A DNA stretch of 64,000 nt from Corynebacterium sp. zg-331 (GTDB lineage Bacteria; Actinomycetota; Actinomycetes; Mycobacteriales; Mycobacteriaceae), in NCBI RefSeq assembly GCF_014267345.1, contig NZ_JACMYD010000001.1:496001-560000 (forward strand). The letters are read 5' to 3'. The notes beneath the pieces were generated by a model. That model ran no database searches. It saw only the letters and a list, made by a program, of their open reading frames with translations, and had not been told where the DNA came from. Positions 6,546 through 43,784 of this stretch are shown piece after piece. The first letter of the stretch is position 1; the number at the start of each line of letters is the position of its first letter. The position numbers and the translations under genes were made by a program.

Positions 6546-8828
6546 ATGGCACAGGAACAGCCCATCAAGCCCCGCGCCACCGCAGGGGTGCGCGGCATGT
6601 CCGCGCGCCTGGCGCGCAGCCTCACCGGTAACCGTTCCAAGGTCAATCCGGTTCTCGATCCGCTGCTGAGCATTCATCGGCAGTTCCATCCCAAGGCGGA
6701 TGGGGAGTTGCTCGATCGCGCTTATGCTACCGCGGAGCGCCTGCACGAGGGGGTGTATCGCAAGTCCGGGGAGCCCTACATTACCCATCCGCTGGCGGTA
6801 GCCACTATCGCCGCGGAGATCGGCATGGACACCACGACCCTGGCGGCGTCGCTGCTGCACGACACCGTGGAGGATACCGATTACAGCCTTGCGGATCTCA
6901 CCGCGGACTTTGGGGAGGAGGTGGCCCGGCTGGTCGATGGGGTGACCAAGCTGGACAAGGTGGCACTGGGCGCGGCGGCGGAGGCGGAGACGATCCGCAA
7001 GATGATCGTGGCGATGTCTCAGGACCCCCGGGTGCTGGTGATTAAGGTGGCCGATCGCCTCCACAATATGCGCACCATGCGTTTCCTTCCGCCGGAAAAG
7101 CAAGCCAAGAAGGCCAAGCAAACCCTCGATGTGATCGCTCCCCTGGCGCACCGCCTGGGCATGGCCAGCGTGAAGTGGGAGCTAGAGGACCTCTCCTTTG
7201 CGATTCTCTACCCCAAGAAGTACGACGAGATCGTGCGGCTGGTGGCCGATCGCTCCCCGCAGCGCGATCGCGCCCTGGCGGAGATCAAGGAGCAACTGGA
7301 GGAGGCGCTGCGCGAGAACAACATCGAGGCCGAGGTGATGGGCCGTCCCAAGCACTACTGGTCCATTTATCAGAAGATGATCGTGCGGGGCCATAGCTTT
7401 GATGAGATCTTCGATCTGGTGGGCGTGCGGGTGCTCGTGGATAACGTGCACAACTGCTACGCCGCCATCGGCGTGGTGCACGCCCTGTTTTCCGCCATGC
7501 CGGGGCGGTTCAAGGACTACATCTCCGCGCCGCGCTTTGGGGTATATCAATCCCTGCACACCACCGTAATGACCAACTCCGGGCGGCCCCTGGAGGTACA
7601 GGTGCGCACCCACGAGATGCACTACAACGCGGAGTTTGGCATCGCCGCCCACTGGCGGTACAAGGAGACCAAGGGCTCTCATAAGGGCGATCAGGCCGAG
7701 GTGGATCAGATAGCGTGGATGCGCCAGCTTTTGGATTGGCAGAAGGAGGCCGCCGATCCTAATGAGTTTCTTGATTCCCTGCGCTACGACCTTACCGCCA
7801 AGCAGATCTTTGCCTTCACGCCCAAGGGCGACGTGGTGAACCTGCCGGTGGATTCCACTCCCATCGACTTCGCTTACGCTGTGCACACCGAGGTGGGGCA
7901 TCGCTGCATCGGGGCCAAGATCAATGGCAAGCTGGTGGCCCTGGAGACCACGTTAAAGTCCGGGGATCGGGTGGAGATTTTTACCTCCAAGGATGAAAAC
8001 GCCGGGCCCTCCCGGGATTGGCAGGACTTTGTGGTCTCCGGTCGGGCCAAGGCGAAGATCCGCCAGTGGTTTAGTAAGGAACGCCGCGAGGAACACCTCG
8101 AAGCGGGGCGCGACGCCCTGGCCGCCGAGGTGCAGCGCGGCGGCCTGCCCCTGCACCGGCTCTTTACCGCCCAATCCATGAAAACGGTGGCCACGGAGTT
8201 GCACTATCCCGACGTGGACGCCCTGTACACCGCCATCGGCTCGGGAAATATTTCCGCCCAGCAGGTGGCGCACCGTCTCATGGCGATCTTTGGGGATCGA
8301 GACGCCGCCGAGGATGAGCTGGTCAATCGCACGCCCTTCTCCGAGATCATCAGCGCCAAGCCCACCGCCACGGCGGATAACTCCGGCATCCTGGTGGAGG
8401 GCAGCCCGGACGTGATGGCCAAGCTCGCCAAGTGTTGTCAGCCGGTACCGGGCGATGACATCTTCGGCTTTGTCACCCGAGGCGGCGGGGTCTCGGTGCA
8501 CCGCACCGACTGCACCAATGCGGACAAGCTGCGTTCGGAGACTCAGCGGCTGATCTCCGTCGCCTGGGCGGGGCAGCAGAAGGGGTCGGTATTTAGCGCC
8601 ACCCTGCAGGTGGAGGCCCTAGATCGAGAAGGCCTGCTCATGGACCTCACCCGCGCCATCACGGAGCAGAAGTTGTCCGTGATGGCGATGAACTCGCAGG
8701 CCTCCGAGGATCACATCGCCACCATTCGGTTTACTTTTGCGGTCTCCGATACCAAGCAGCTGGGCGCCCTGGTGACCACCCTGCGCAATACCGAGGGCGT
8801 TTTTGACGTCTACCGGGTGACCAACTAG
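6546..8828 (+). CDS. rel: Bifunctional (p)ppGpp synthetase/hydrolase, RSH family
   Basis: Stringent-response enzyme that both makes and degrades (p)ppGpp. The 760 residues show the full long-RSH order: HD hydrolase domain with LLHDTVEDT (about 105-113), synthetase domain with [13 protein letters not shown] (about 265-277) and [23 protein letters not shown] domain starting [14 protein letters not shown] (about 420), a Cys/His-containing helical-zinc-finger region (CCQPVPGDD), and a C-terminal ACT domain with [16 protein letters not shown]. The hydrolase motif is intact, so a single bifunctional Rel, the usual corynebacterial state, is expected. Confidence 0.97.
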
Positions 8829-8838
8829 GCATAAGAAA

Positions 8839-8862
8839 ATCCCCACCGTGGCCGGTGGGGAT
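8839..8862. terminator. Bidirectional terminator between rel and the cyclophilin gene
   Basis: Perfect inverted repeat ATCCCCACC-GTGGCC-GGTGGGGAT lying between the convergent rel (plus) and cyclophilin (minus) stops. On the minus strand the stem is followed by TTTTCTTA, so it is a good intrinsic terminator for the cyclophilin gene; on the plus strand only a short T run (GTTTCTT) follows. Confidence 0.8.
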
Positions 8863-8880
8863 GGAAGTTTCTTGGATTCT

Positions 8881-9720
8881 TTAAGAAATCGTGGTGCTGG
8901 TGATCTTGACCTCCTCGGCGGGCTTGCCGTCGGAGGCACCGCCCTGGATGCCCTTCTGCGCGATGGCGTCCAGGGTGGCCAGGCCCGCGTCGGTGACCTT
9001 GCCAAAGTAGGTGTAGTTGGGTTCCAGCGGGGAGTCTTGGTAGTTCAGGAAGAACTGCGAGCCGTTGGTGTCCGGGCCGGAGTTAGCCATGGCCAGGGCG
9101 CCGCGCGGGTAGACGACCTGGGTTTTCTCGCCCTCGGGGGAATCGGTGGGGTATTCGTCGGCGAAGCTAAAGCCCGGGCCGCCGGAGCTGGAACCGGAGG
9201 GGTCACCGCACTGGAGCACGTAGATGCCCTGGTCGGTGATGCGGTGGCACACGGTGTTGTCGTAGTACTTCTCCTTGGCCAGGTGCGTGATGGCATTGAC
9301 GGTGCAGGGGGCCACGGAGCGATCCAGCTCCATGCCGATCTCCCCCTGGCTGGTCTTGAGCGTCACGGTGGCGGTGCCGGTGGTGGGCACGTCCTTGGCC
9401 GTGGGCTTGCTCGCCGGCTTGGCGGCCGCGCCTGCATCTGGGTACTCGCAGGTCACGGTCTTATCCAGCGGGGTTTCGCGGGACATCGCCAGCACCTCCG
9501 GGGTGGGCAGTTCGCTCGCGTTGTTCTCGGTGCTCCCCTCGGCGGAGGTGTCGCCGCCGTCGCGGGTGGCGGCGTAGACGATGCCGCCCACCAGAACCAG
9601 GATGGCCACGGCGGCCATGAGTACCACCATCAGCGGCTTGGTCCTTTCGGCGCGGTCGCGGCCGCGCAGGGCTCGATCGAGTTTTTGGAGGGCCTCTTGG
9701 CCTCGCTGTTCGTTATTCAT
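8881..9720 (-). CDS. Membrane-anchored cyclophilin-type peptidyl-prolyl cis-trans isomerase
   Basis: Prolyl isomerase expected to act on the outer face of the membrane. The 279-residue product has a charged cytosolic N-terminus, one transmembrane helix (about 30-50, MVVLMAAVAILVLVGGIVYA), a low-complexity Ser/Thr/Glu/Ala/Lys linker, and a cyclophilin domain from about 115 to the end. Cyclophilin landmarks are VCHRI, QCGDPSG, GPGFSFADEYP, MANSGPDTNGSQFF and YFGKVTDAG. The canonical catalytic Arg is retained in CHRI. It is transcribed convergently to rel. A secreted-protein folding role is inferred from topology. Confidence 0.92.
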   Translation of the reverse strand: MNNEQRGQEALQKLDRALRGRDRAERTKPLMVVLMAAVAILVLVGGIVYAATRDGGDTSAEGSTENNASELPTPEVLAMSRETPLDKTVTCEYPDAGAAAKPASKPTAKDVPTTGTATVTLKTSQGEIGMELDRSVAPCTVNAITHLAKEKYYDNTVCHRITDQGIYVLQCGDPSGSSSGGPGFSFADEYPTDSPEGEKTQVVYPRGALAMANSGPDTNGSQFFLNYQDSPLEPNYTYFGKVTDAGLATLDAIAQKGIQGGASDGKPAEEVKITSTTIS

Positions 9721-9787
9721 CCCGGTGTATGACCTCGGATTCCTCGGCTAGGGGTACTGGGTATCGGTCATATTGTAGCGTTGAGCC

Positions 9788-10423
9788 ATGGATATTCTCA
9801 CGCTCACCTGCGGGCCCCTGGATACCAACTGCTATCTCGCCGTGGGGGAGGCGGAGGCCACGATCATCGACCCCGGGATGGGCGCGGCCCCGCTGGTACG
9901 CCGGGAGGCGCGGCGTGTGGGGGTACCGGTGACCGGCATCGTGCTCACCCACGGACACATCGACCATCTGCGCGACGCCGGTGAACTCTCCCGAGAGTTC
10001 GGCGTGCCTGTGTGCGTGCATCCGGCCGACGAACCCATGCTCGACGGCGGCCCGCTGCTGCGGGAACTATTCGACGTTGCCTCGATGGTGCCGATCCGGG
10101 ACGTCGAGCACTTAGGCGACGCGGTACGTATCGCCGGGCAGGAGCACCGGGTGGTGCCCGCCCCCGGCCATTCCCCTGGCAGCGTGCTGGTGGTGGGAAC
10201 GGAGGTGTGCTGGAGCGGCGACGTGCTCTTTCGCGGTGGAATCGGGCGCACCGACCTGCCCGGCTCCGATCCTGAGGCTATGCTGGCCACGCTGCGCGGG
10301 CCGGTGGCGGGGCTCGTGGACGATCTCCGGGTGCTGCCGGGGCACGGGGCGGAGACCACCGTGCGTCACGAGCGGGCCACCAACCCTTATCTGCTGCGCC
10401 TGGGGCTAGAGTATGGGGGGTGA
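9788..10423 (+). CDS. Metallo-beta-lactamase-fold hydrolase (glyoxalase II-like)
   Basis: Probable metal-dependent hydrolase of the hydroxyacylglutathione-hydrolase-like group. The 211-residue product carries the metal motif THGHIDH (about residues 55-61), the second ligand region PGHSPGS (about 124-130), [18 protein letters not shown] (about 138-155) with the bridging Asp, and [10 protein letters not shown] near the C-terminus. These are all the expected metal ligands of the fold. The natural substrate is unknown; mycothiol thioesters or persulfides are possible in an actinobacterium, but the sequence does not decide. The stop overlaps the hisS GTG start by four bases. Confidence 0.88.
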
Positions 10424-11697
10424 GCGAGAAGAAGAAGTACCAGGCCCATAAGGCGCCCAAGGGCGTGCCCGATTACGTCCCTCCGGCCTCCGCGGGATTC
10501 GTGCGGGTGCGCGATACCTTCGTGCGGCAGGCCCGCACCGCGGGCTTCGAGCACATCGAGCTGCCGGTCTTTGAGGAGACGGAGCTCTTTGCCCGCGGCG
10601 TGGGCGAATCTACCGACGTGGTAACCAAGGAGATGTATACCTTCGAGGATCGCGGCGGGCGTTCGGTCAGCCTGCGCCCGGAGGGCACCGCCGGAGTGAT
10701 GCGCGCGGTGATCGAACACCACCTCGATCGCGGACAGCTACCGGCCAAGCTCTGCTACGCCGGACCCTTTTTCCGTTACGAGCGCCCGCAGGCGGGGCGC
10801 TACCGCCAGCTGCAGCAGGTGGGCGTGGAGGCGATCGGGGTGGACGATCCGGCGCTTGACGCCGAGATCATCGCCCTGGCGGATCGCAGTTACCGCGCCC
10901 TGGGGCTCAGCGGATTCCGCCTGGAGATCACTAGCCTGGGCGATCGCACCTGCCGCCCGCAGTACCGGGAAAGGCTGCAGGAGTTTCTCTTTGGCCTCCC
11001 GCTGGATGAGGAGACCCGCCGCCGCGCGGAGATCAACCCGCTGCGCGTGCTCGACGACAAGCGCCCCGAGGTGCGCGAGATGGTGGCGGAGGCGCCTTTG
11101 ATGCTCGATCACCTTTCTGCGGAAAGCCGCGAGCACTTTGAGCGGGTCGCCGGTCTGTTAGATGACATGGGGGTGCAGTACACCGTGAACCCGCACCTGG
11201 TGCGTGGCCTGGACTATTACACCAAGACTTGCTTTGAGTTCGTCCACGATGGCCTGGGGGCGCAGTCCGGTATTGGTGGTGGCGGGCGCTACGACGGCCT
11301 GCTGGCCCAACTGGGTGGCCAGGATCTCTCCGGCATCGGCTATGGGCTGGGGGTGGATCGCACCGTGTTGGCCCTGGAGGCCGAGGGGATCGACCTGTCC
11401 GCGCCGCGGGTGGAGGTCTACGGCGTGGCCCTGGGGGCCGAGGCTAAGCGGGTGATGGCTGCCTTGGTCAATGACCTGCGGGTGGCCGGGGTGCGTGCGG
11501 ACATGGCCTATGGCGATCGCGGGCTGAAGGGCGCGATGAAGGGGGCCGATCGCGCGGGGGCGCGGGTGGCATTGGTGCTGGGGGATCAGGAGCTTGAGGC
11601 GGGCACCGTGGCGGTGAAAGACCTTGCCGAGCACAGCCAGCGGGAGGTGGCGTTGGATTCTGTGGTGGGCCTCGTGGAGAATGAGGTGCGGGGATAG
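10420..11697 (+). CDS. hisS: Histidyl-tRNA synthetase
   Basis: Class II aminoacyl-tRNA synthetase charging tRNA-His. The 425-residue product has class II motif 2 [20 protein letters not shown] (about residues 113-132), the histidine-specific motifs [14 protein letters not shown] (about 262-275) and [15 protein letters not shown], motif 3 [12 protein letters not shown], and a C-terminal anticodon-binding domain. GTG start, translationally coupled to the upstream hydrolase through GTGA. A hairpin terminator follows the stop. Confidence 0.96.
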
Positions 11698-11716
11698 GGG
11701 CCTGGATGAGGGGATG

Positions 11717-11744
11717 GGGAGGGTGCGGTACGCCGCGCCCTCCC
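11717..11744 (+). terminator. Probable terminator after hisS
   Basis: Twelve-pair stem GGGAGGGTGCGG / CCGCGCCCTCCC with one G-U pair and a TACG tetraloop, 20 bases after the hisS stop. The downstream T run is weak (TTCGCCTTATT), so termination is likely but not certain. Confidence 0.65.
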
Positions 11745-12019
11745 TTCGCCTTATTAGACGGACATAGAAATATACGCCCGGGGCGATGGGGAGGGTAAGG
11801 AAATGGGGGTAGCGTATCCAATGTATTGTGCATATGTGTTGATCTTGAAAATAAATGGGTGGAAGGCTTGCCTCGATGTTGGGGCGTGATTAGTGCCTCC
11901 TAAAATATGATCCAAGGCACATATTTTGGAGATGGCGATCATGAAGAAGTGCTCTGTTCAGGTGTGTGCGTGGTGGAAAACTCGGATGGATCCGTGGGGG
12001 TGCTCGACACATAAGGTAA

Positions 12020-12271
12020 TGTGACGAAACGTGTGAAGGCCCGTGGGCATACTATGCGCTGGGACAGGAGGTACCCACCTACTTTGAGGTAGGCCCGGAG
12101 ACTTGGAAACTGGTGCAGGTGGTGGATCCGGAGCGTACTACGGTGTTGCCGATTATGGCTGATCCGGACAAGTACAGCGCTACCAAGCCTGCTAGTGATA
12201 ATCCGGCTAAGGGTCCGGAGAATATGACCAAGAATCCGGTGGCCGGGGCAGCGTGCCTGGATGTCCGATGA
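12020..12271 (+). pseudogene. Coding fragment of unknown family, no start codon
   Basis: Open stretch of 83 codons between stops at 12,017 and 12,269. The translation has soluble-protein character in this frame (for example TYFEVGPETWKLVQVVDPE and VLPIMADPDKYSA) and a Pro/Lys/Asn-rich end. There is no plausible start. An upstream stretch in another frame (about 11,955-12,011, reading ENSDGSVGVLDT) and a downstream one (from about 12,260, reading SDDGRIATEHPAGMDLG) may be parts of the same ancestral gene separated by frameshifts. I do not recognise the family. Confidence 0.4.
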
Positions 12272-12343
12272 CGGCAGGATCGCCACCGAGCACCCCGCCG
12301 GAATGGATCTGGGCGCACGGACTGGACGGTAACGAATGAGTGA

Positions 12344-36687: not shown

Positions 36688-37220
36688 TGGCCGCCGTGAC
36701 CAAACGCCAGGAGAAGTGGCGCCGACACGGTGCCCGCTATAAGGCCCGTCGCCGCGCGGTGGACGTGCTCTTTGAGGCCGAGGCCCGCGACGTCGATCCC
36801 ATGAGTATCGTGGCGGATCGCACGGAGCTGGCACGGGTGCCGGAAAATCAGGTGGCTCCCATCGCAGATTACACCCGGCAGATCGTCCTGGGTGCCGCCG
36901 AGGAACTGGATGCGGTGGACGCCGCCATCACCAGGTTCCTCAGCGATCAATGGGAGCTAGGGCGTATTCCCGCAGTCGATCGCGCGATTTTGCGCATGTC
37001 CGTGTGGGAGCTGATCTTTAACCCGGAGGTGCCCACCGCCACTGCGGTCGTGGAGGGCGTGGAGATTGCCAGCGAGTACTCCGGGGAACAGGGCGCACCG
37101 TATATTCACGCGGTGCTCGACGACGTGGCCAAGCACCTCGACGAGCTGCGTGCGGCCGCCGCGCCTGCCCCCGCCGAGGAGGCGGACTCGGCCGAGGCTA
37201 GCGATTCTCTCGACGATTAA
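36687..37220 (+). CDS. nusB: Transcription antitermination factor NusB
   Basis: All-helical RNA-binding partner of NusE in rRNA antitermination. The 177-residue product contains [26 protein letters not shown] (basic N-terminus and first helix; core [17 protein letters not shown]), [20 protein letters not shown] (about 91-110) and [19 protein letters not shown] (about 119-137), all family signatures. The C-terminus is Ala/Glu-rich. It overlaps efp by one base and is convergent with the YbjN-like gene, whose 3' end overlaps it by about 23 bases. Confidence 0.95.
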
Positions 37221-37641
37221 GCAGCTCCTCGGCGGCACGGGCCACGCGATCCTGGCTCGCCAGGACCTCGTCCACCGCCCCGCGCAGGGCCGCACTCAGT
37301 TGCTCCTCGGTGATCCCGGCGGCGATGGGGAGGTCGCATTCGGTGCGCACCACGAGGTTTTCCTCCCGATCCGCCACCACGGCTTTGGCACCGAAGCCGG
37401 AGCAATTCACCTGGTTGGCCGCCAGGTGCAGGGTGGGCACGCCAGAATCGGAGGCCAGCTCGGTGGGGTTGTCCGCGCGCACGATGAGCACCGAGTTCAG
37501 CAGCGCAAAGGTCACGCGGAAGCCGTTGAGGTTGGCGGTGGCCACCTGGGGGTCCTCGGTAGGCCACAGGGTGATCCCAAAAGCCTTCATAGCTGCCGTG
37601 ACGCGGTCGAAGGTCAGCTCGGAAACGCGCTGCTCGCTCAT
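37198..37641 (-). CDS. YbjN-like domain protein
   Basis: 147-residue soluble protein starting at ATG 37,641. The sequence has the alternating strand/helix pattern of YbjN/type III secretion chaperone-like domains: [20 protein letters not shown] (early helix and loop), then [19 protein letters not shown], and a C-terminal helix rich in Ala/Glu. It lacks signal peptide and catalytic motifs. Its start overlaps the stop of the next upstream minus-strand gene by four bases, so the two related proteins form a coupled pair. The function is unknown. Confidence 0.7.
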
Positions 37642-38117
37642 GCCTCTTCCTCCTCGTGGTTGTGGGTATCTTCCCAGGTGACGGCCTCCGGGAACTGCGC
37701 CTCGAGCCACTGGAAGCACGCCGCGATGGCATCGAGGGTGGACATGACAAAGGCCCCCATCTGATTGCGGCTGAGACCCTGGGCGATGTGGAGGCGTCGG
37801 CAGGCGGAAAAGGCCAGGACGCCAGGGGTGGATTCGAAAAAACGCAGGGTGGGGGCGAGCTGGGTGAGGTTCCACTCGTTGCTCGCGGCCAGGGCGGTGG
37901 CGGCCCGGTTGCTGTCCACCTCGCCGCGCCAGATGGAATCGCACAGCAGGTAGTCGCCCTCGATGGCAAAGGACACGGCGGCGTTGTGGAATCCGGTGCG
38001 CACCACGGGGGTGGGGTCCTGGTGGAGCCGGTAGGCGAGGTCTTCGGCCTCCAGGATATCCACCACGGATTGCTCGGAGACCGGGGCGAGGGGGGTATCT
38101 GGTTCGGGGTGAGTCAC
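37638..38117 (-). CDS. YbjN-like domain protein
   Basis: 159-residue soluble protein, first gene of a two-gene minus-strand operon divergent from carA. It has VDILEAEDLAYRLHQDP, then strands VSFAIEGDYLLCDSIWRGEV and FSACRRLHIAQGLSRNQMGA, a pattern compatible with YbjN-like proteins, and an acidic end (HNHEEEEA). The two proteins look like distant paralogues. In relatives such pairs lie between nusB and the pyr operon. The function is unknown. Confidence 0.68.
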   Translation of the reverse strand: MTHPEPDTPLAPVSEQSVVDILEAEDLAYRLHQDPTPVVRTGFHNAAVSFAIEGDYLLCDSIWRGEVDSNRAATALAASNEWNLTQLAPTLRFFESTPGVLAFSACRRLHIAQGLSRNQMGAFVMSTLDAIAACFQWLEAQFPEAVTWEDTHNHEEEEA

Positions 38118-38248
38118 GCATCTCCTTCATCGAGGGCTTGTCTGTGTTCGACAATGATCTGTCCACCACAGTAGCCAAGTTGCGGTGATATGCTTGCGGG
38201 GATCCTTGTGATGAGGGTCGTGGTTAATCACTGGACATCCTTTAAAGG

Positions 38249-38278
38249 CCGCACAGAGAGGCGGGAAAGGAGGTCACG
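38249..38278 (+). promoter_or_regulatory. PyrR-type mRNA-binding hairpin overlapping a ribosome binding site
   Basis: Short stem CCGC (38,249-38,252) / GCGG (38,261-38,264) closes the loop ACAGAGAG, and AGAGAGGC matches the core of the PyrR RNA-binding consensus (AGAGAGGC/U in a hairpin loop). Immediately after comes AAAGGAGGTCACG, a near-perfect Shine-Dalgarno, ending at ATG 38,279. PyrR binding here would block translation initiation, the mode proposed for actinobacterial pyr leaders. No pyrR gene is present in the window. Confidence 0.65.
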
Positions 38279-38395
38279 ATGAGTCAGGCGAACGCCCGAG
38301 GCGTCGTCGTGCCCATCGCGCACCGGCACACCAGCTGCGTGGAGGCAGCGGTATATCACGGGGGAGGGTTAGCATATGGGGGATCACGTCGATGA
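38279..38395 (+). CDS. 38-codon leader ORF coupled to carA (possible pyrR remnant)
   Basis: Small frame with AAAGGAGGTCACG directly before its ATG, the strongest ribosome binding site in the window. It begins MSQANARGVVVPIAHRH and ends with a Gly/Arg-rich tail; the TGA overlaps the carA ATG as ATGA, an arrangement for translational coupling. It occupies the place where pyrR, pyrB and pyrC stand in other corynebacteria. The IAH triplet and VVV before it faintly recall the N-terminal region of PyrR, so this may be the stub left by a deletion. Whether the peptide is functional is unknown; its translation could control carA. Confidence 0.5.
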   Translation: MSQANARGVVVPIAHRHTSCVEAAVYHGGGLAYGGSRR

Positions 38396-39594
38396 GTAAT
38401 ACCTCATTCAAGCAGCCCATCACGCACAACCGAAAGGTCGATACTGTGACGTCTACACCGCTCATCCCCGCCGTGTTGGTTCTTGCCGACGGCCGTTCCT
38501 TCCCCGGATACAGCCTGGGCAGGGTGGGTTCCACCCTGGGCGAGGCCGTGTTTAGCACCGCGATGACCGGCTACCAGGAAACCATGACCGACCCCTCGTA
38601 TCACCGGCAGATCGTGGTGGCCACGGCGCCGCAGATAGGCAATACCGGTTGGAACGATGAAGACGACGAATCGCGGGATCGCGGCATTTGGGTGGCGGGC
38701 CTAGTCATCCGCGATCTCTCGGCGCGAGTGTCGAGCTGGCGGGCCTCCCGCAGCCTGGACGAGGAGATGGAAAAGCAGGGCATCGTGGGGATCCGCGGCG
38801 TGGACACCCGCACGGTGGTGCGCCACCTGCGCGACAAGGGTTCGGTGGCCGCGGGCATCTTCTCCGGGCCGGAGGCCGAACGCCCGCTGGCGGAGCTGGT
38901 AGACATCGTCGCGCAGCAGGAGGCGATGGAGGGGGCCGATCTTGCGGCTCAGGTCAGTACCGCGGAGCCGTACGTGGTGGAACCGGAGGGCGAGCACCGG
39001 CACACGGTGGTGGCCTTTGACATGGGAATTAAGACCAACACCCCGCGTCACTTCGCCGCCCGCGGCGTGCGCACCGTGGTGGTGCCTGCCACCGCCACCT
39101 GGGAGGACGTGGAGCAATACCGCCCGGACGGGGTGTTCGTGTCCAACGGCCCGGGCGATCCGGCCACCGCCGACGCCGTGGTGGCGGTGGTGCGCGAGGT
39201 ACTGGGGCGCAAGATTCCTTTCTTCGGCATCTGCTTTGGCAACCAGATCCTCGGCCGGGCGCTGGGGATGGAGACGTACAAGATGAAATTCGGCCATCGG
39301 GGGATCAACGTGCCGGTGCTCAACGTGGTGACCGGAAAGATTGACATTACCGCGCAGAACCACGGCTTTGCACTCAAGGGCAAGGCGGGGGAGACCTTCG
39401 ACACGGACTTCGGTCCGGCCAAGGTCACCCACGTATGCCTCAACGACGATGTGGTTGAGGGCGTGGCGTTGGAGAACGGGCTCGCCTATTCCGTGCAGTA
39501 CCACCCGGAGGCCGCCGCTGGCCCGCACGACGCCAGCCCGCTCTTTGACCAGTTCATCGACCTCATGGCCGAGTGCTCCCCCGCTCAGCAGTAA
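38392..39594 (+). CDS. carA: Carbamoyl-phosphate synthase small subunit
   Basis: Glutamine amidotransferase subunit delivering ammonia to CarB for carbamoyl phosphate, precursor of pyrimidines and arginine. The 400 residues have the N-terminal GEAVFSTAMTGYQETMTDPS (about 47-66) and a class I glutaminase domain with FFGICFGNQILGRALG (about 279-294, catalytic Cys) and the His/Glu pair in VQYHPEAAAGPHDA. I take ATG 38,392, which overlaps the leader ORF; GTG 38,446 (18 codons in, with GAAAGG upstream) is a serious alternative. Confidence 0.94.
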   Translation: MSNTSFKQPITHNRKVDTVTSTPLIPAVLVLADGRSFPGYSLGRVGSTLGEAVFSTAMTGYQETMTDPSYHRQIVVATAPQIGNTGWNDEDDESRDRGIWVAGLVIRDLSARVSSWRASRSLDEEMEKQGIVGIRGVDTRTVVRHLRDKGSVAAGIFSGPEAERPLAELVDIVAQQEAMEGADLAAQVSTAEPYVVEPEGEHRHTVVAFDMGIKTNTPRHFAARGVRTVVVPATATWEDVEQYRPDGVFVSNGPGDPATADAVVAVVREVLGRKIPFFGICFGNQILGRALGMETYKMKFGHRGINVPVLNVVTGKIDITAQNHGFALKGKAGETFDTDFGPAKVTHVCLNDDVVEGVALENGLAYSVQYHPEAAAGPHDASPLFDQFIDLMAECSPAQQ

Positions 39595-39624: not shown

Positions 39625-42600
39625 ATGCCCAAGCGCAACGATATTAATCACGTCCTGGTCATCGGCTCCGGTCCCATCGTGATCGGCCAGGCCTGTGAGT
39701 TCGATTACTCCGGCACCCAGGCCTGCCGTGTGCTCAAGGAGGAGGGGCTGCGCGTCACCCTGATAAATTCCAACCCGGCCACGATCATGACGGATCCGGA
39801 GTTTGCCGATCACACCTACGTCGAGCCGATCACCCCGGAATACATCGACAAGGTCTTTGCCAAGGAGGCTGCCCAGGGCCACCCCATCGACGCGGTGCTG
39901 GCCACCCTCGGCGGTCAGACCGCCCTGAACGCCGCGATTCAGCTCGATCGCCAGGGCATCCTGGATAAGTACGGGGTGGAACTCATTGGTGCGGACATCG
40001 AGGCCATCGAGCGCGGCGAGGATCGCCAGAAGTTCAAGGACATCGTGGCCTCCATCGGCGGGGAATCCGCTCGTTCGCGGGTCTGTCACAGCATGGAAGA
40101 GGTGCACAAGACGGTGGCTGAGCTGGGCCTGCCGGTGGTGGTGCGCCCCAGCTTCACCATGGGCGGTCTGGGTTCCGGATTGGCCTTTGACGAGGAGGAT
40201 CTGGAGCGTATCGCCGGCGGTGGCCTGGCGGCTTCCCCGGAGGCCAATGTGCTCATCGAGGAATCCATCCTCGGCTGGAAGGAATACGAACTGGAGTTGA
40301 TGCGCGATGGCGACGATAACGTGGTGGTCATCGCCTCCATCGAAAACGTCGATGCCCTAGGCGTGCACACCGGCGACTCCGTGACGGTAGCACCGGCGAT
40401 GACGCTGACGGATCGCGAGTACCAGAAGATGCGCGATCAGGGCATCGCCATCATCCGGGCCGTGGGCGTGGACACCGGTGGCTGTAACATTCAGTTCGCC
40501 CTCGACCCCCGCGATGGCCGCCTCATCACCATCGAGATGAATCCGCGCGTCTCGCGTTCCTCCGCCCTGGCCTCCAAGGCCACGGGTTTTCCCATCGCCA
40601 AGATCGCCGCCAAGCTGGCGATCGGCTATACGCTGGACGAGATCACCAACGACATCACGGGGGTTACCCCGGCGGCCTTCGAGCCCACCCTGGACTACGT
40701 GATCGTCAAGGCGCCCCGTTTCGCCTTTGAAAAGTTTGTGGGCTCGGACGATACGCTGACCACCACCATGAAGTCCGTGGGCGAGGCGATGGGCATCGGC
40801 CGTAACTACATCGCGGGCCTCAATAAGGTGATGCGTTCGCTGGAGCAGAAACAGGCGGGCTTCTGGACGGCCCCGGACCCGGAGTTTGGCTCAGTCGAGG
40901 AGGTGTTGGAGGACCTCCGGCGCCCCACGGAGGGCCGCATGTACGACGTGGAGCTGGCGCTGCGCTGGGGAGCGAGTATCGAGCAGGTGCACGAGGCCTC
41001 CGGCATCGATCCCTGGTTCCTGGCGGAGCTGGCCGAGTTGGTGGCGTTCCGCGAGGAGCTGATCGCGGCCCAGGTGCTCACCGAGGACCTGCTGCGCCGC
41101 GCCAAGGTCTTCGGCCTGTCCGATGCCCAGATCGCCCGGTTGCGCCCCGAGTTCGCCGGGGAGGAGGGCGTGCGTCGACTGCGCTGGTCGATGGGCATCC
41201 GCCCAGTGTATAAGACGGTGGATACCTGCGCGGCGGAGTTTGAGGCGCGCACCCCGTACCACTATTCCGCCTACGAGCTCGACCCCGAGGCGGAATCCGA
41301 GGTCACCGAGCAGAAGGAGCGGGAGAAGGTCATCATCCTGGGATCCGGGCCCAACCGGATCGGCCAGGGGATCGAGTTCGATTATTCCTGCGTGCACGCG
41401 GCGCTGGAGTTGTCCCGGGTGGGTTATGAGACGGTGATGGTCAATTGCAACCCGGAGACCGTTTCCACGGACTACGATACCGCCGACCGCCTCTACTTCG
41501 AGCCGCTGACCTTCGAGGACGTGATGGAGGTTTATCACGCGGAGTGCCAGTCCGGCACGGTGGCAGGCGTGATCGTGCAGCTCGGCGGCCAAACCCCCCT
41601 AGGTCTGGCGGAGCGCCTGGCGGCTGCGGGCGTGCCGGTGGTGGGCACCACTCCGGAATCCATCAACCTGGCCGAGGATCGCGGCGAGTTTGGCGAGGTG
41701 CTGCGCCGTGCGGAGCTGCCGGCCCCGGCCTTCGGCACCGCGACGTCGTTCGATGAGGCCCGCGAGGTGGCCGCCGCCATCGGCTATCCGGTGCTGGTGC
41801 GTCCTTCCTATGTATTGGGCGGGCGCGGCATGGAGATCGTCTACGACGAGTCCTCGCTGAGCAGCTACATCGAGCGGGCCACGGAGCTGACCTCCGATCA
41901 CCCGGTGTTGGTGGATCGCTTCCTCGATAACGCCATCGAGATCGACGTAGACGCACTGTGCGACGGCACGGAGGTCTATCTGGCCGGAGTGATGGAGCAC
42001 ATCGAGGAGGCTGGCATCCATTCCGGCGATTCCGCTTGCGCCCTGCCCCCCATGACCTTGGGCCCGGAGGACATCGAGGCGGTGCGCCGCTCTACGGTGG
42101 CCCTCGCGCAGGGTATCGGTGTCAAGGGGCTGATGAACGTGCAGTATGCCCTCAAGGACGACGTGCTCTATGTCATCGAGGCCAATCCGCGCGCCTCGCG
42201 CACGGTTCCCTTCGTCTCTAAGGCGACCGGCGTGCCTCTGGCCAAGGCGGCCTCCCGCATCATGATGGGCGCCACCCTCGCCGAGCTGCGCGCCGAGGGG
42301 ATGATCCCCGCCACTCACGACGGCGGTTCCCTGCCCATCGACGCGCCCATCGCCGTCAAGGAGGCGGTGCTGCCGTTTAATCGCTTCCGTCGCCCGGACG
42401 GTACCATGCTCGATACCCTGCTGAGCCCGGAGATGAAGTCCACCGGCGAGGTCATGGGCGTGGCTACCAACTTCGGTGCGGCCTATGCCAAGGCGGAGGC
42501 CTCGGCCTTCGGCGCCCTGCCCACCGAGGGGACAGTGTTCGTCTCCGTGGCCAATCGGGATAAACGTACCCTGATCTTCCCCATCCAGCGTCTAGCCTCG

Positions 42601-42966
42601 TTGGGCTTCACGATCCTGGCCACCGCGGGCACCGCGAGCATACTGCGGCGCAACGGTATCGATTGCGAGGAGGTGCTCAAGGGCTCGGACATCCGCGCCG
42701 GCGCGCAGGGCCCCTCCATCCTGGATCGGATCCGGGCCGGCGAGGTGGACCTCATCTTGAATACCCCGGCGGGTTCCTCCGGGGCGCGTCACGATGGTTA
42801 CGACATCCGTGCGGCGGCGGTAAGCGTGGGAGTGCCCGCGGTCACCACCGTGCAGGGGGTCACCGCGGCCGTGCAGGGCATCGAGGCCCTGCGCGGCGAG
42901 GGCTTTGCGGTGCGCGCCCTGCAAGAGCTCGATCACGCCTCGGCGGGAAAGGCGATGGGGAAGTGA
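39625..42966 (+). CDS. carB: Carbamoyl-phosphate synthase large subunit
   Basis: Synthetase subunit with two ATP-grasp halves. The 1113-residue product shows the duplicated pattern: [21 protein letters not shown] (N half, about 9-29; core [16 protein letters not shown]) and [20 protein letters not shown] (C half, about 569-588), ATP-grasp segments [15 protein letters not shown] and [17 protein letters not shown], and a C-terminal MGS-like allosteric domain (from about 950) beginning [19 protein letters not shown]. The start follows AAGGTAACCTAAGGA. The stop overlaps the pyrF GTG. Confidence 0.97.
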
Positions 42967-43784
42967 CGCCGACCTTTGGCGATCGTCTGGCTCGGGTGGC
43001 GCGGCGGCGCGGGCGCCTGTGCGTGGGTATTGATCCCCACCCGGGGCTCCTGGAGTCCTGGGGTCTGGGTGATACGGCGGCGGGCTTGGCGGAGTTTTCC
43101 CGCCGGTGCGTGGAGGCCTTTGGCCCCACGGTCTGCCTGGTCAAACCGCAGGTGGCCTTCTACGAGCGTTTCGGCTCCGCGGGTTTTGCCGTGTTGGAGG
43201 AGACGATCGCGGGCTTGCGCGCCCAGGGCGCGCTCGTGGTGGCCGACGCCAAGCGCGGCGATATTGGCTCGACGATGGCGGGCTACGCCTCCGCGTGGTT
43301 GGACGATTCCTCGCCCCTGTGCAGCGATGCGGTGACCGTCTCGCCCTACCTAGGGATAGGGGCCCTGGATCCTGCCTTCGAGCGCGCGGAGGCTACCGGC
43401 CGAGGCGTCTTCGTGCTCGCGGCCACCTCGAATCCGGAAGCCCGCGTACTCCAGGCCCACGAGGGCGCCGATGGGCGCAGCATCGCTCAGCAGGTGGTGG
43501 ACGAGGTCACGCGGCGTAACGCCGCCCACGAGGGTCTGGGAAATCTCGGCGTGGTGGTGGGGGCGACGGTGGAGCGGGCCCCGGATTGTCGGTGCCTCAA
43601 CGGTCCGGTGCTCATGCCGGGCGTGGGGGTGCAGGGTGGCAGCGCCCAGGACGTGGCGCACATCATGGGTTCGCGGGCGGATTTGGCCTATCCCAATGTG
43701 TCTCGAGGCGTGCTCGGCTGCGGTCCTGAGGTCTGTGACCTGCGCAAAGCCGTGGAATCTTTTGGGCAAGCTCTGAGATTATGA
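42963..43784 (+). CDS. pyrF: Orotidine 5'-phosphate decarboxylase, actinobacterial type 2
   Basis: Final step of de novo UMP synthesis. GTG 42,963 overlaps the carB stop by four bases; the frame open upstream to 42,663 lies inside carB. The 273 residues contain [19 protein letters not shown] (about 16-34), [14 protein letters not shown] (about 58-71), the catalytic [20 protein letters not shown] (about 91-110, Asp-Lys-Asp set) and [15 protein letters not shown] (phosphate-binding). With carAB it is the only pyrimidine-pathway gene here; pyrB and pyrC are not in the window. Confidence 0.95.

Follow-up and report, generated by a model that had tools for sequence, protein, structure and literature searches.

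A predicted PyrR leader before carA in Corynebacterium sp. zg-331, where pyrR, pyrB and pyrC stand beside an arginine-deiminase-type gene

In the genome of Corynebacterium sp. zg-331, a predicted PyrR leader stands before carA-carB-pyrF, and pyrR, pyrB and pyrC lie elsewhere, on contig C24, behind a second leader and beside an arginine-deiminase-type ornithine carbamoyltransferase (OTC) gene. Probably, an operator was left heading carA-carB-pyrF after local loss of pyrR-pyrB-pyrC, a cluster at the arginine-deiminase (arc) locus took over, and PyrR acts in trans on both leaders. The features of the window (the whole stretch of 64,000 nucleotides that was analysed), together with the second pyr region, are as follows.

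38166-38205, forward strand: conserved block 5' of the leader, probably a promoter (by eye, TG-A-TATGCT at 38186-38194)
38229-38277, forward strand: PyrR leader RNA element (pattern, alignment, fold and covariance model)
38234-38243 with 38266-38275: predicted outer helix of the leader, arms GAC.UCCUUU and AAAGGA.GUC
38249-38251 with 38262-38264: inner CCG/CGG stem of the leader, with AGAGAG in the loop
38268-38273, forward strand: Shine-Dalgarno AGGAGG, in the outer 3' arm and sequestered by the predicted hairpin (fold)
38279-38395, forward strand: leader ORF (mini-ORF) of 38 codons, possibly derived from the 5' end of pyrR, its stop overlapping the carA ATG (ATGA)
38392-39594, forward strand: carA from the putatively coupled ATG (TIGR01368, 456 bits, match beginning at residue 27)
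38446-38448, forward strand: alternative carA start GTG with GAAAGG at 38432-38437, conserved in all five species
39625-42966, forward strand: carB (NF003671, 1592 bits)
42900-43784, forward strand: pyrF, an ORF named by position and homology (42900 is the query edge, not a called start)
8329-12334 of locus L092 (G000:C24): OTC-leader-pyrR region

By its sequence, the element at 38229-38277 belongs to the translational type of PyrR leader and is the same element as that standing before pyrR across the Mycobacteriales, and the initial annotation of an actinobacterial PyrR-type leader is thus upheld by the aligned leaders, the covariance model and the match throughout the order. We fetched 80 carA loci from public genomes of Corynebacterium, Mycobacterium and its kin, Gordonia and Nocardia; a pattern search found the element in 77 of them, the remaining three being cut by contig ends. 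The pattern, which fixed most stem letters and required GAGGC, collected 66 distinct leaders of 49-50 bases. Fifty were aligned, including that of the window, with which the native leaders of Mycobacterium, Gordonia and Nocardia aligned column by column. Standard pairs were present in 97.5% of 600 cells across the 50 leaders, compared with 42-65% when the partners were slid. When letters were shuffled within columns, 96.8% were still paired (1 of 500 shuffles as high as observed), further pair types were below the shuffles (500/500 as high) and changes on both sides occurred in 2 of the 12 pairs (50/500); because column shuffles pair almost as well and the pattern fixed the stems, the leader varies too little for covariation to establish the fold. 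A covariance model of the 50 leaders gave two matches in the 2.16-Mb genome at E<=0.01, namely the carA leader (3.7e-19) and the pyrR leader on C24 (2.9e-19). Both belong to the training sequences and match by construction, so the point is that no further PyrR leader was found at that threshold. The genome encodes a PyrR protein (NF003547, 294.8 bits, cut-off 230), the only one among eight phosphoribosyltransferase matches (the other seven were named by eye, pyrE by its NCBIfam score), and the pyrimidine genes carA-carB-pyrF stand behind the window leader. In a search of 216 bases, the binding-hairpin half of the Rfam family RF00515 (PyrR) aligned with the window leader at 22.6 bits (E 0.33), under the gathering score of 54, and an Rfam search of 20 kb returned no PyrR match up to E 5. 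One mycobacterial native leader aligned better but likewise stayed under that gathering score (32.0 bits, E 0.0043). The window leader is therefore not an RF00515 member by the threshold of that family.

The annotation had also described a hairpin loop with AGAGAGGC next to a Shine-Dalgarno, and the predicted fold agrees: AGAGAGGC occupies 38255-38262 in the loop, and the 3' arm (38266-38275) contains AGGAGG, 5 nt before the mini-ORF ATG at 38279. The 58-nt fold of the carA leader reached -17.3 kcal/mol, whereas shuffled sequences gave -10.2 (z -2.8), 4 of 200 being at least as stable. No terminator-like site was found on the forward strand from 38137 to 38460, and an intrinsic terminator behind the binding loop is absent; attenuation by such a terminator within the carA leader is rejected. 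Upstream, two small genes on the opposite strand (37198-38117) lie between nusB and the leader, and are common to C. mastitidis, C. lowii, C. oculi and genome G205.

In 72 of the 80 fetched loci, the leader and pyrR-pyrB-pyrC are found upstream of carA, with the leader before pyrR, in keeping with the order leader-pyrR-pyrB-pyrC-carA-carB-pyrF that had been given as normal for the genus. The other eight comprised three sister species (C. mastitidis, C. lowii and C. oculi), two partial loci (C. tapiri and C. glucuronolyticum) and the three cut by contig ends. In the window, pyrR, pyrB and pyrC are indeed absent between nusB and carA, and carA follows after about 110 bases as annotated, its ATG at 38392 being 113 nt past that of the mini-ORF. 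Relatives of pyrF stand behind carB in the fetched loci. In all four sister genomes (C. mastitidis, C. lowii, C. oculi and G205), carA is likewise headed by this leader, and pyrR-pyrB-pyrC occupy another site behind a leader of their own, a placement that the initial annotation had raised as telling against its own reading.

Two explanations had been offered for the missing genes: that they had moved, or that aspartate transcarbamoylase and dihydroorotase were lost, leaving an organism that needs uracil and keeps pyrF as a leftover. The genome, a draft of 24 contigs comprising 2.16 Mb at 99.99% completeness, speaks against the latter. The proposed genome search recovered pyrR, pyrB, pyrC, pyrD and pyrE, all as open frames. 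Intact pyrR-pyrB-pyrC lie on C24 with their own leader, and NCBIfam scores were over the cut-off for PyrR, PyrB (302.7 bits, cut-off 237), PyrC (452.6 bits, cut-off 279) and PyrE; pyrD was found on contig C12, and pyrF and carAB are also present. With a full set of UMP genes in open frames, the organism is not expected to need uracil, and pyrF need not be a leftover. Auxotrophy through loss of pyrB and pyrC, which the gap at the usual place had suggested, is rejected at the gene level as highly improbable. An assembly error or misjoin might be suspected in a draft of 24 contigs, and had been named as a possible cause of the absence. The same junction, with a matching leader and ORF, recurs in the four closest genomes, and we regard such an artefact as having practically no probability. 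It might further be supposed that the carA leader is a functionless relic awaiting decay, as it sits at the site of a deletion and as the leader of G229, which precedes carA by about 340 nt and lacks a coupled ORF, seems uncoupled. Against this, only 1 of its 49 columns varies among the five species, compared with 40 of 99 in the mini-ORF (Fisher 1e-7) and 26 of 31 in the spacer upstream of the leader (11 with gaps). This difference argues that the leader has been held by selection after the gene loss, and a relic appears very unlikely; as part of the favoured explanation, the carA leader is probably a genuine PyrR operator still under selection. In the block at 38166-38205, 8 of 40 columns vary, which is few beside the 26 of 31 in the spacer; a sigma-70 consensus scan 5' of the leader found nothing, and a promoter there is suggested by the conservation of the block.

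The mini-ORF has 38 codons in the window, C. mastitidis and C. lowii, 37 in C. oculi and 32 in G205. In 5/5 genomes its stop overlaps an in-frame carA ATG, as ATGA in four and TAATG in G205, where an indel shifted both the stop and the ATG and the overlap was kept. Since the five species share common ancestry, the argument for coupling amounts to about three events. Selection on the amino acids of the mini-ORF was not found (pN/pS 1.31 over 27 codons in five sequences; 1767 of 2000 column shuffles as low), which argues against a functional leader peptide. Its own-frame dN/dS was 1.37, the other two frames gave lower values (0.47 and 0.60), and the carA control gave 0.08. Possibly, the mini-ORF is a remnant of pyrR, as hinted by its likeness to PyrR N-termini. 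For the mean likeness, the shuffles (of 300) scoring as high numbered 0 for C. lowii and 3 for C. mastitidis, a clear excess, 21 for the window and 27 for C. oculi, a weak one, and 85 for G205, where none is seen; for the best single PyrR score, with 2, 53, 56, 179 and 93 for C. lowii, C. mastitidis, the window, C. oculi and G205, only C. lowii stands out. In each of the five species, the carA frame stays open for a long way upstream (53-87 codons), and an N-terminal extension therefore proves nothing alone. Most of 33 native pyrC ends viewed by eye were without overlap onto the carA start.

To place the second cluster, we retrieved 14 sites at which a pyrR is displaced or present as a second gene, of which those of G025 and G112 were taken without their carA loci and may not be second copies. 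Thirteen of these sites have pyrR-pyrB, in most cases together with pyrC, next to an arginine-deiminase-type OTC, and often arcA, arcC, arcD or an argR-like gene is there as well; only the truncated pyrR of C. senegalense (L199) departs from this. OTC-like matches exceeded 250 bits at these 13 places, whereas none was above 82 bits in the 80 carA loci, 67 of which were longer than 20 kb. The order in C. lowii, C. oculi and G205 (L102, L103 and L188) is mfd-arcD-arcA-arcB-arcC-argR-leader-pyrR-pyrB-pyrC. In the genome of the window and in C. mastitidis (L092 and L101), arcB alone is found between mfd and pyrR, where arcA, arcC and a second arcD are missing, and an arcD-like gene remains beyond pyrC; the C24 leader of the former starts 35 bases past the OTC stop. 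In quick trees without bootstrap, the 13 arc-linked clusters were split from 40 native ones with support of 89 (PyrB) and 92 (the three proteins together), both below 95 and with several long branches. This grouping suggests replacement by an arc-linked cluster, and the C24 genes look like replacements rather than the old genes moved. Of the earlier proposal that the three genes had moved, the part that places them elsewhere with their own leader stands, and "moved" should probably read "replaced", given a grouping supported below 95. A second OTC over the cut-off was found neither in the genome of the window nor in six other genomes searched. As for arginine synthesis, argG is present in the genome of the window, as are argC, argJ, argB, argD and argH by eye. 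These genes form a run at 2100-9516 of L201 (G000:C3), argC-J-B-D-(argR-like)-G-H, named by eye except argG and without argF. The sole OTC over the cut-off in that genome is the one adjoining pyrR.

Scanning 242 Corynebacterium genomes with the leader model gave matches in 241, of which 20 had two or more. In 12 of these 20, viewed singly, the second leader comes with pyr genes; five of the 12 are the genome of the window and its four sisters, and G129 and G229 are also among them. At the carA locus of C. tapiri (L011, 9209-9996), the leader is followed by a pyrR broken after about 88 codons, a pyrC lacking its front and an internal stretch, and carA, and the genome has an intact arc-linked cluster elsewhere. 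This locus seems to show the same loss at a halfway stage. In G068 and C. glucuronolyticum, pyrR-pyrC-carA without pyrB is accompanied by a second pyrR-pyrB elsewhere, and G040 carries another complete cluster on a contig of 10 kb. C. senegalense (G153; L199, about 8500-8830) has a second leader before a pyrR that breaks off at about codon 89 and continues into unrelated sequence, with no OTC in the 15 kb fetched. Weak second matches in G006, G027, G055, G115, G149, G150, G232 and G241 (19.5-21.5 bits) and a further pair in G040 (22.6 and 23.3 bits) showed no pyr gene at the loci viewed (L160-L167, L180 and L181, which left out one match each in G149, G027 and G040) and were dropped; matches of 14.6-15.9 bits, appearing only at a laxer cut-off, were disregarded. 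In the best tree of carB, built from 48 rows, no fewer than 4 changes are needed to account for the ten displaced carA loci, and well-supported branches force only one. An intact-pyrR leader of G229 (L172, about 1510-1560; also L194) carries GAGAAGC in its loop, in contrast to the GAGAGGC or GTGAGGC of the aligned leaders. The arc-linked pyrR leaders of G040, G025 and G112 (L159, L174 and L175) are far drifted in the loop and Shine-Dalgarno (17.7-33.2 bits) before an open pyrR; the best leader matches of G112 (17.7 bits) and G025 (31.3 bits) stand before pyrR. Possibly, these three represent a changed PyrR-RNA pair.

Two further explanations share much of this evidence. The leader may bind PyrR while carA is translated from the GTG at 38446 with its own Shine-Dalgarno; PyrR would then act through polarity or mRNA decay, and the ATGA would be incidental. 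If carA started there, coupling would not be needed, and the TIGR01368 match, which begins at residue 27, is blind to the choice between ATG and GTG. By eye, several native carA genes begin at GTG after GAAAGG, and the window retains this same pair, which is conserved in all five species. The lack of conservation of the mini-ORF amino acids also fits, as does the frequency of ATG-or-GTG overlaps of any kind in letter shuffles (17-29% across the five species). ATG overlaps, however, arose in only 2.8-3.6% of shuffles and were kept in 5/5 genomes despite the indel, and a parallel case occurs in G129 (L191, 10197-10412), where the leader precedes a 45-codon ORF with a GTGA overlap, pyrC and carA, although an ATG-or-GTG overlap of this type arises in 9% of shuffles. 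We consider a GTG start quite conceivable, at somewhat under even chances. For the history of the locus, it could instead be proposed that the native pyrR-pyrB-pyrC and a copy of the leader were translocated to the arc locus, with no foreign or paralogous copy involved. The leaders of the two sites are near-identical in loop and stem, and the support for the arc-linked grouping is below 95. On the other hand, the 13 arc-linked copies do group apart from the 40 native ones, C. tapiri holds an eroded native pyrR-pyrC as well as an intact cluster linked to arc, two pyrR genes occur in G068 and C. glucuronolyticum, and G040 has two full clusters. These two-copy genomes indicate that second copies preceded loss elsewhere in the genus, and translocation seems rather unlikely.

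Under the favoured explanation, the native pyrR-pyrB-pyrC would have been lost from before carA, with a second cluster at the arc locus taking over, and the single PyrR encoded on C24 would act in trans on the two leaders. By analogy with known PyrR systems, PyrR-UMP is expected to bind the carA leader and repress: when UMP is plentiful, it would keep the hairpin closed and the Shine-Dalgarno of the mini-ORF hidden, and a closed C24 leader would silence pyrR and the genes downstream. With the mini-ORF untranslated, re-initiation at the overlapping carA ATG would fail, and the untranslated mRNA would be exposed to Rho or RNases, so that polarity or decay would lower carA. When UMP is scarce, ribosomes would translate the mini-ORF and continue onto carA. 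A broader proposal, which we put forward tentatively and with some doubt, is that UMP synthesis has been reorganised around arginine breakdown time and again in corynebacteria. The arc-side pyrR-pyrB-pyrC would use carbamoyl phosphate derived from citrulline, the native cluster would be deleted, carAB would become a separately promoted back-up under the same PyrR in trans, and a scrap of pyrR would serve as a translation relay.

A conserved operon is split here in two, and both parts should come under a single PyrR. Living species show apparent stages, from the intact operon through two copies, loss of pyrB, and broken pyrR and pyrC, to the leader and mini-ORF only. This makes testable both the retention of an RNA operator after deletion of its gene and the feeding of UMP synthesis by arginine-derived carbamoyl phosphate in bacteria that still have carAB. 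In titles and the beginnings of abstracts of the open-licence literature, we found no description of a PyrR leader before carA or of arc-linked pyrRBC in Corynebacterium. A related link is known from Thermococcus kodakarensis, in which carbamoyl phosphate obtained from arginine via ArcB is reported to feed pyrimidines, this OTC being able to supply UMP synthesis (PMC13260591). T. kodakarensis is an archaeon without carbamoyl phosphate synthetase (PMC13260591), whereas the genome of the window keeps carAB. The arc-pyrimidine link in Corynebacterium, by comparison, is one of gene neighbourhood.

The native corynebacterial operon shares with the window the leader, carAB, pyrF and the flanking nusB and efp in the same order, and differs in having pyrR, pyrB and pyrC where the window has a 38-codon leader ORF. 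The RF00515 PyrR binding site is the Bacillus-type attenuator. Its PyrR-binding hairpin aligns over the whole length with the window leader, with one deletion and one insertion, but the window leader is without antiterminator or terminator, and it scores 22.6 bits against a gathering score of 54. Closest in kind is the pyr operon of Mycobacterium smegmatis, whose leader is reportedly subject to PyrR-dependent translational repression and has the same hairpin and loop over the Shine-Dalgarno. In contrast to M. smegmatis, the window leader would drive the mini-ORF and carA instead of pyrR, and PyrR would have to act in trans. The leader itself is thus a known regulatory element, and its arrangement before carA, with PyrR predicted to act in trans, appears to be new.
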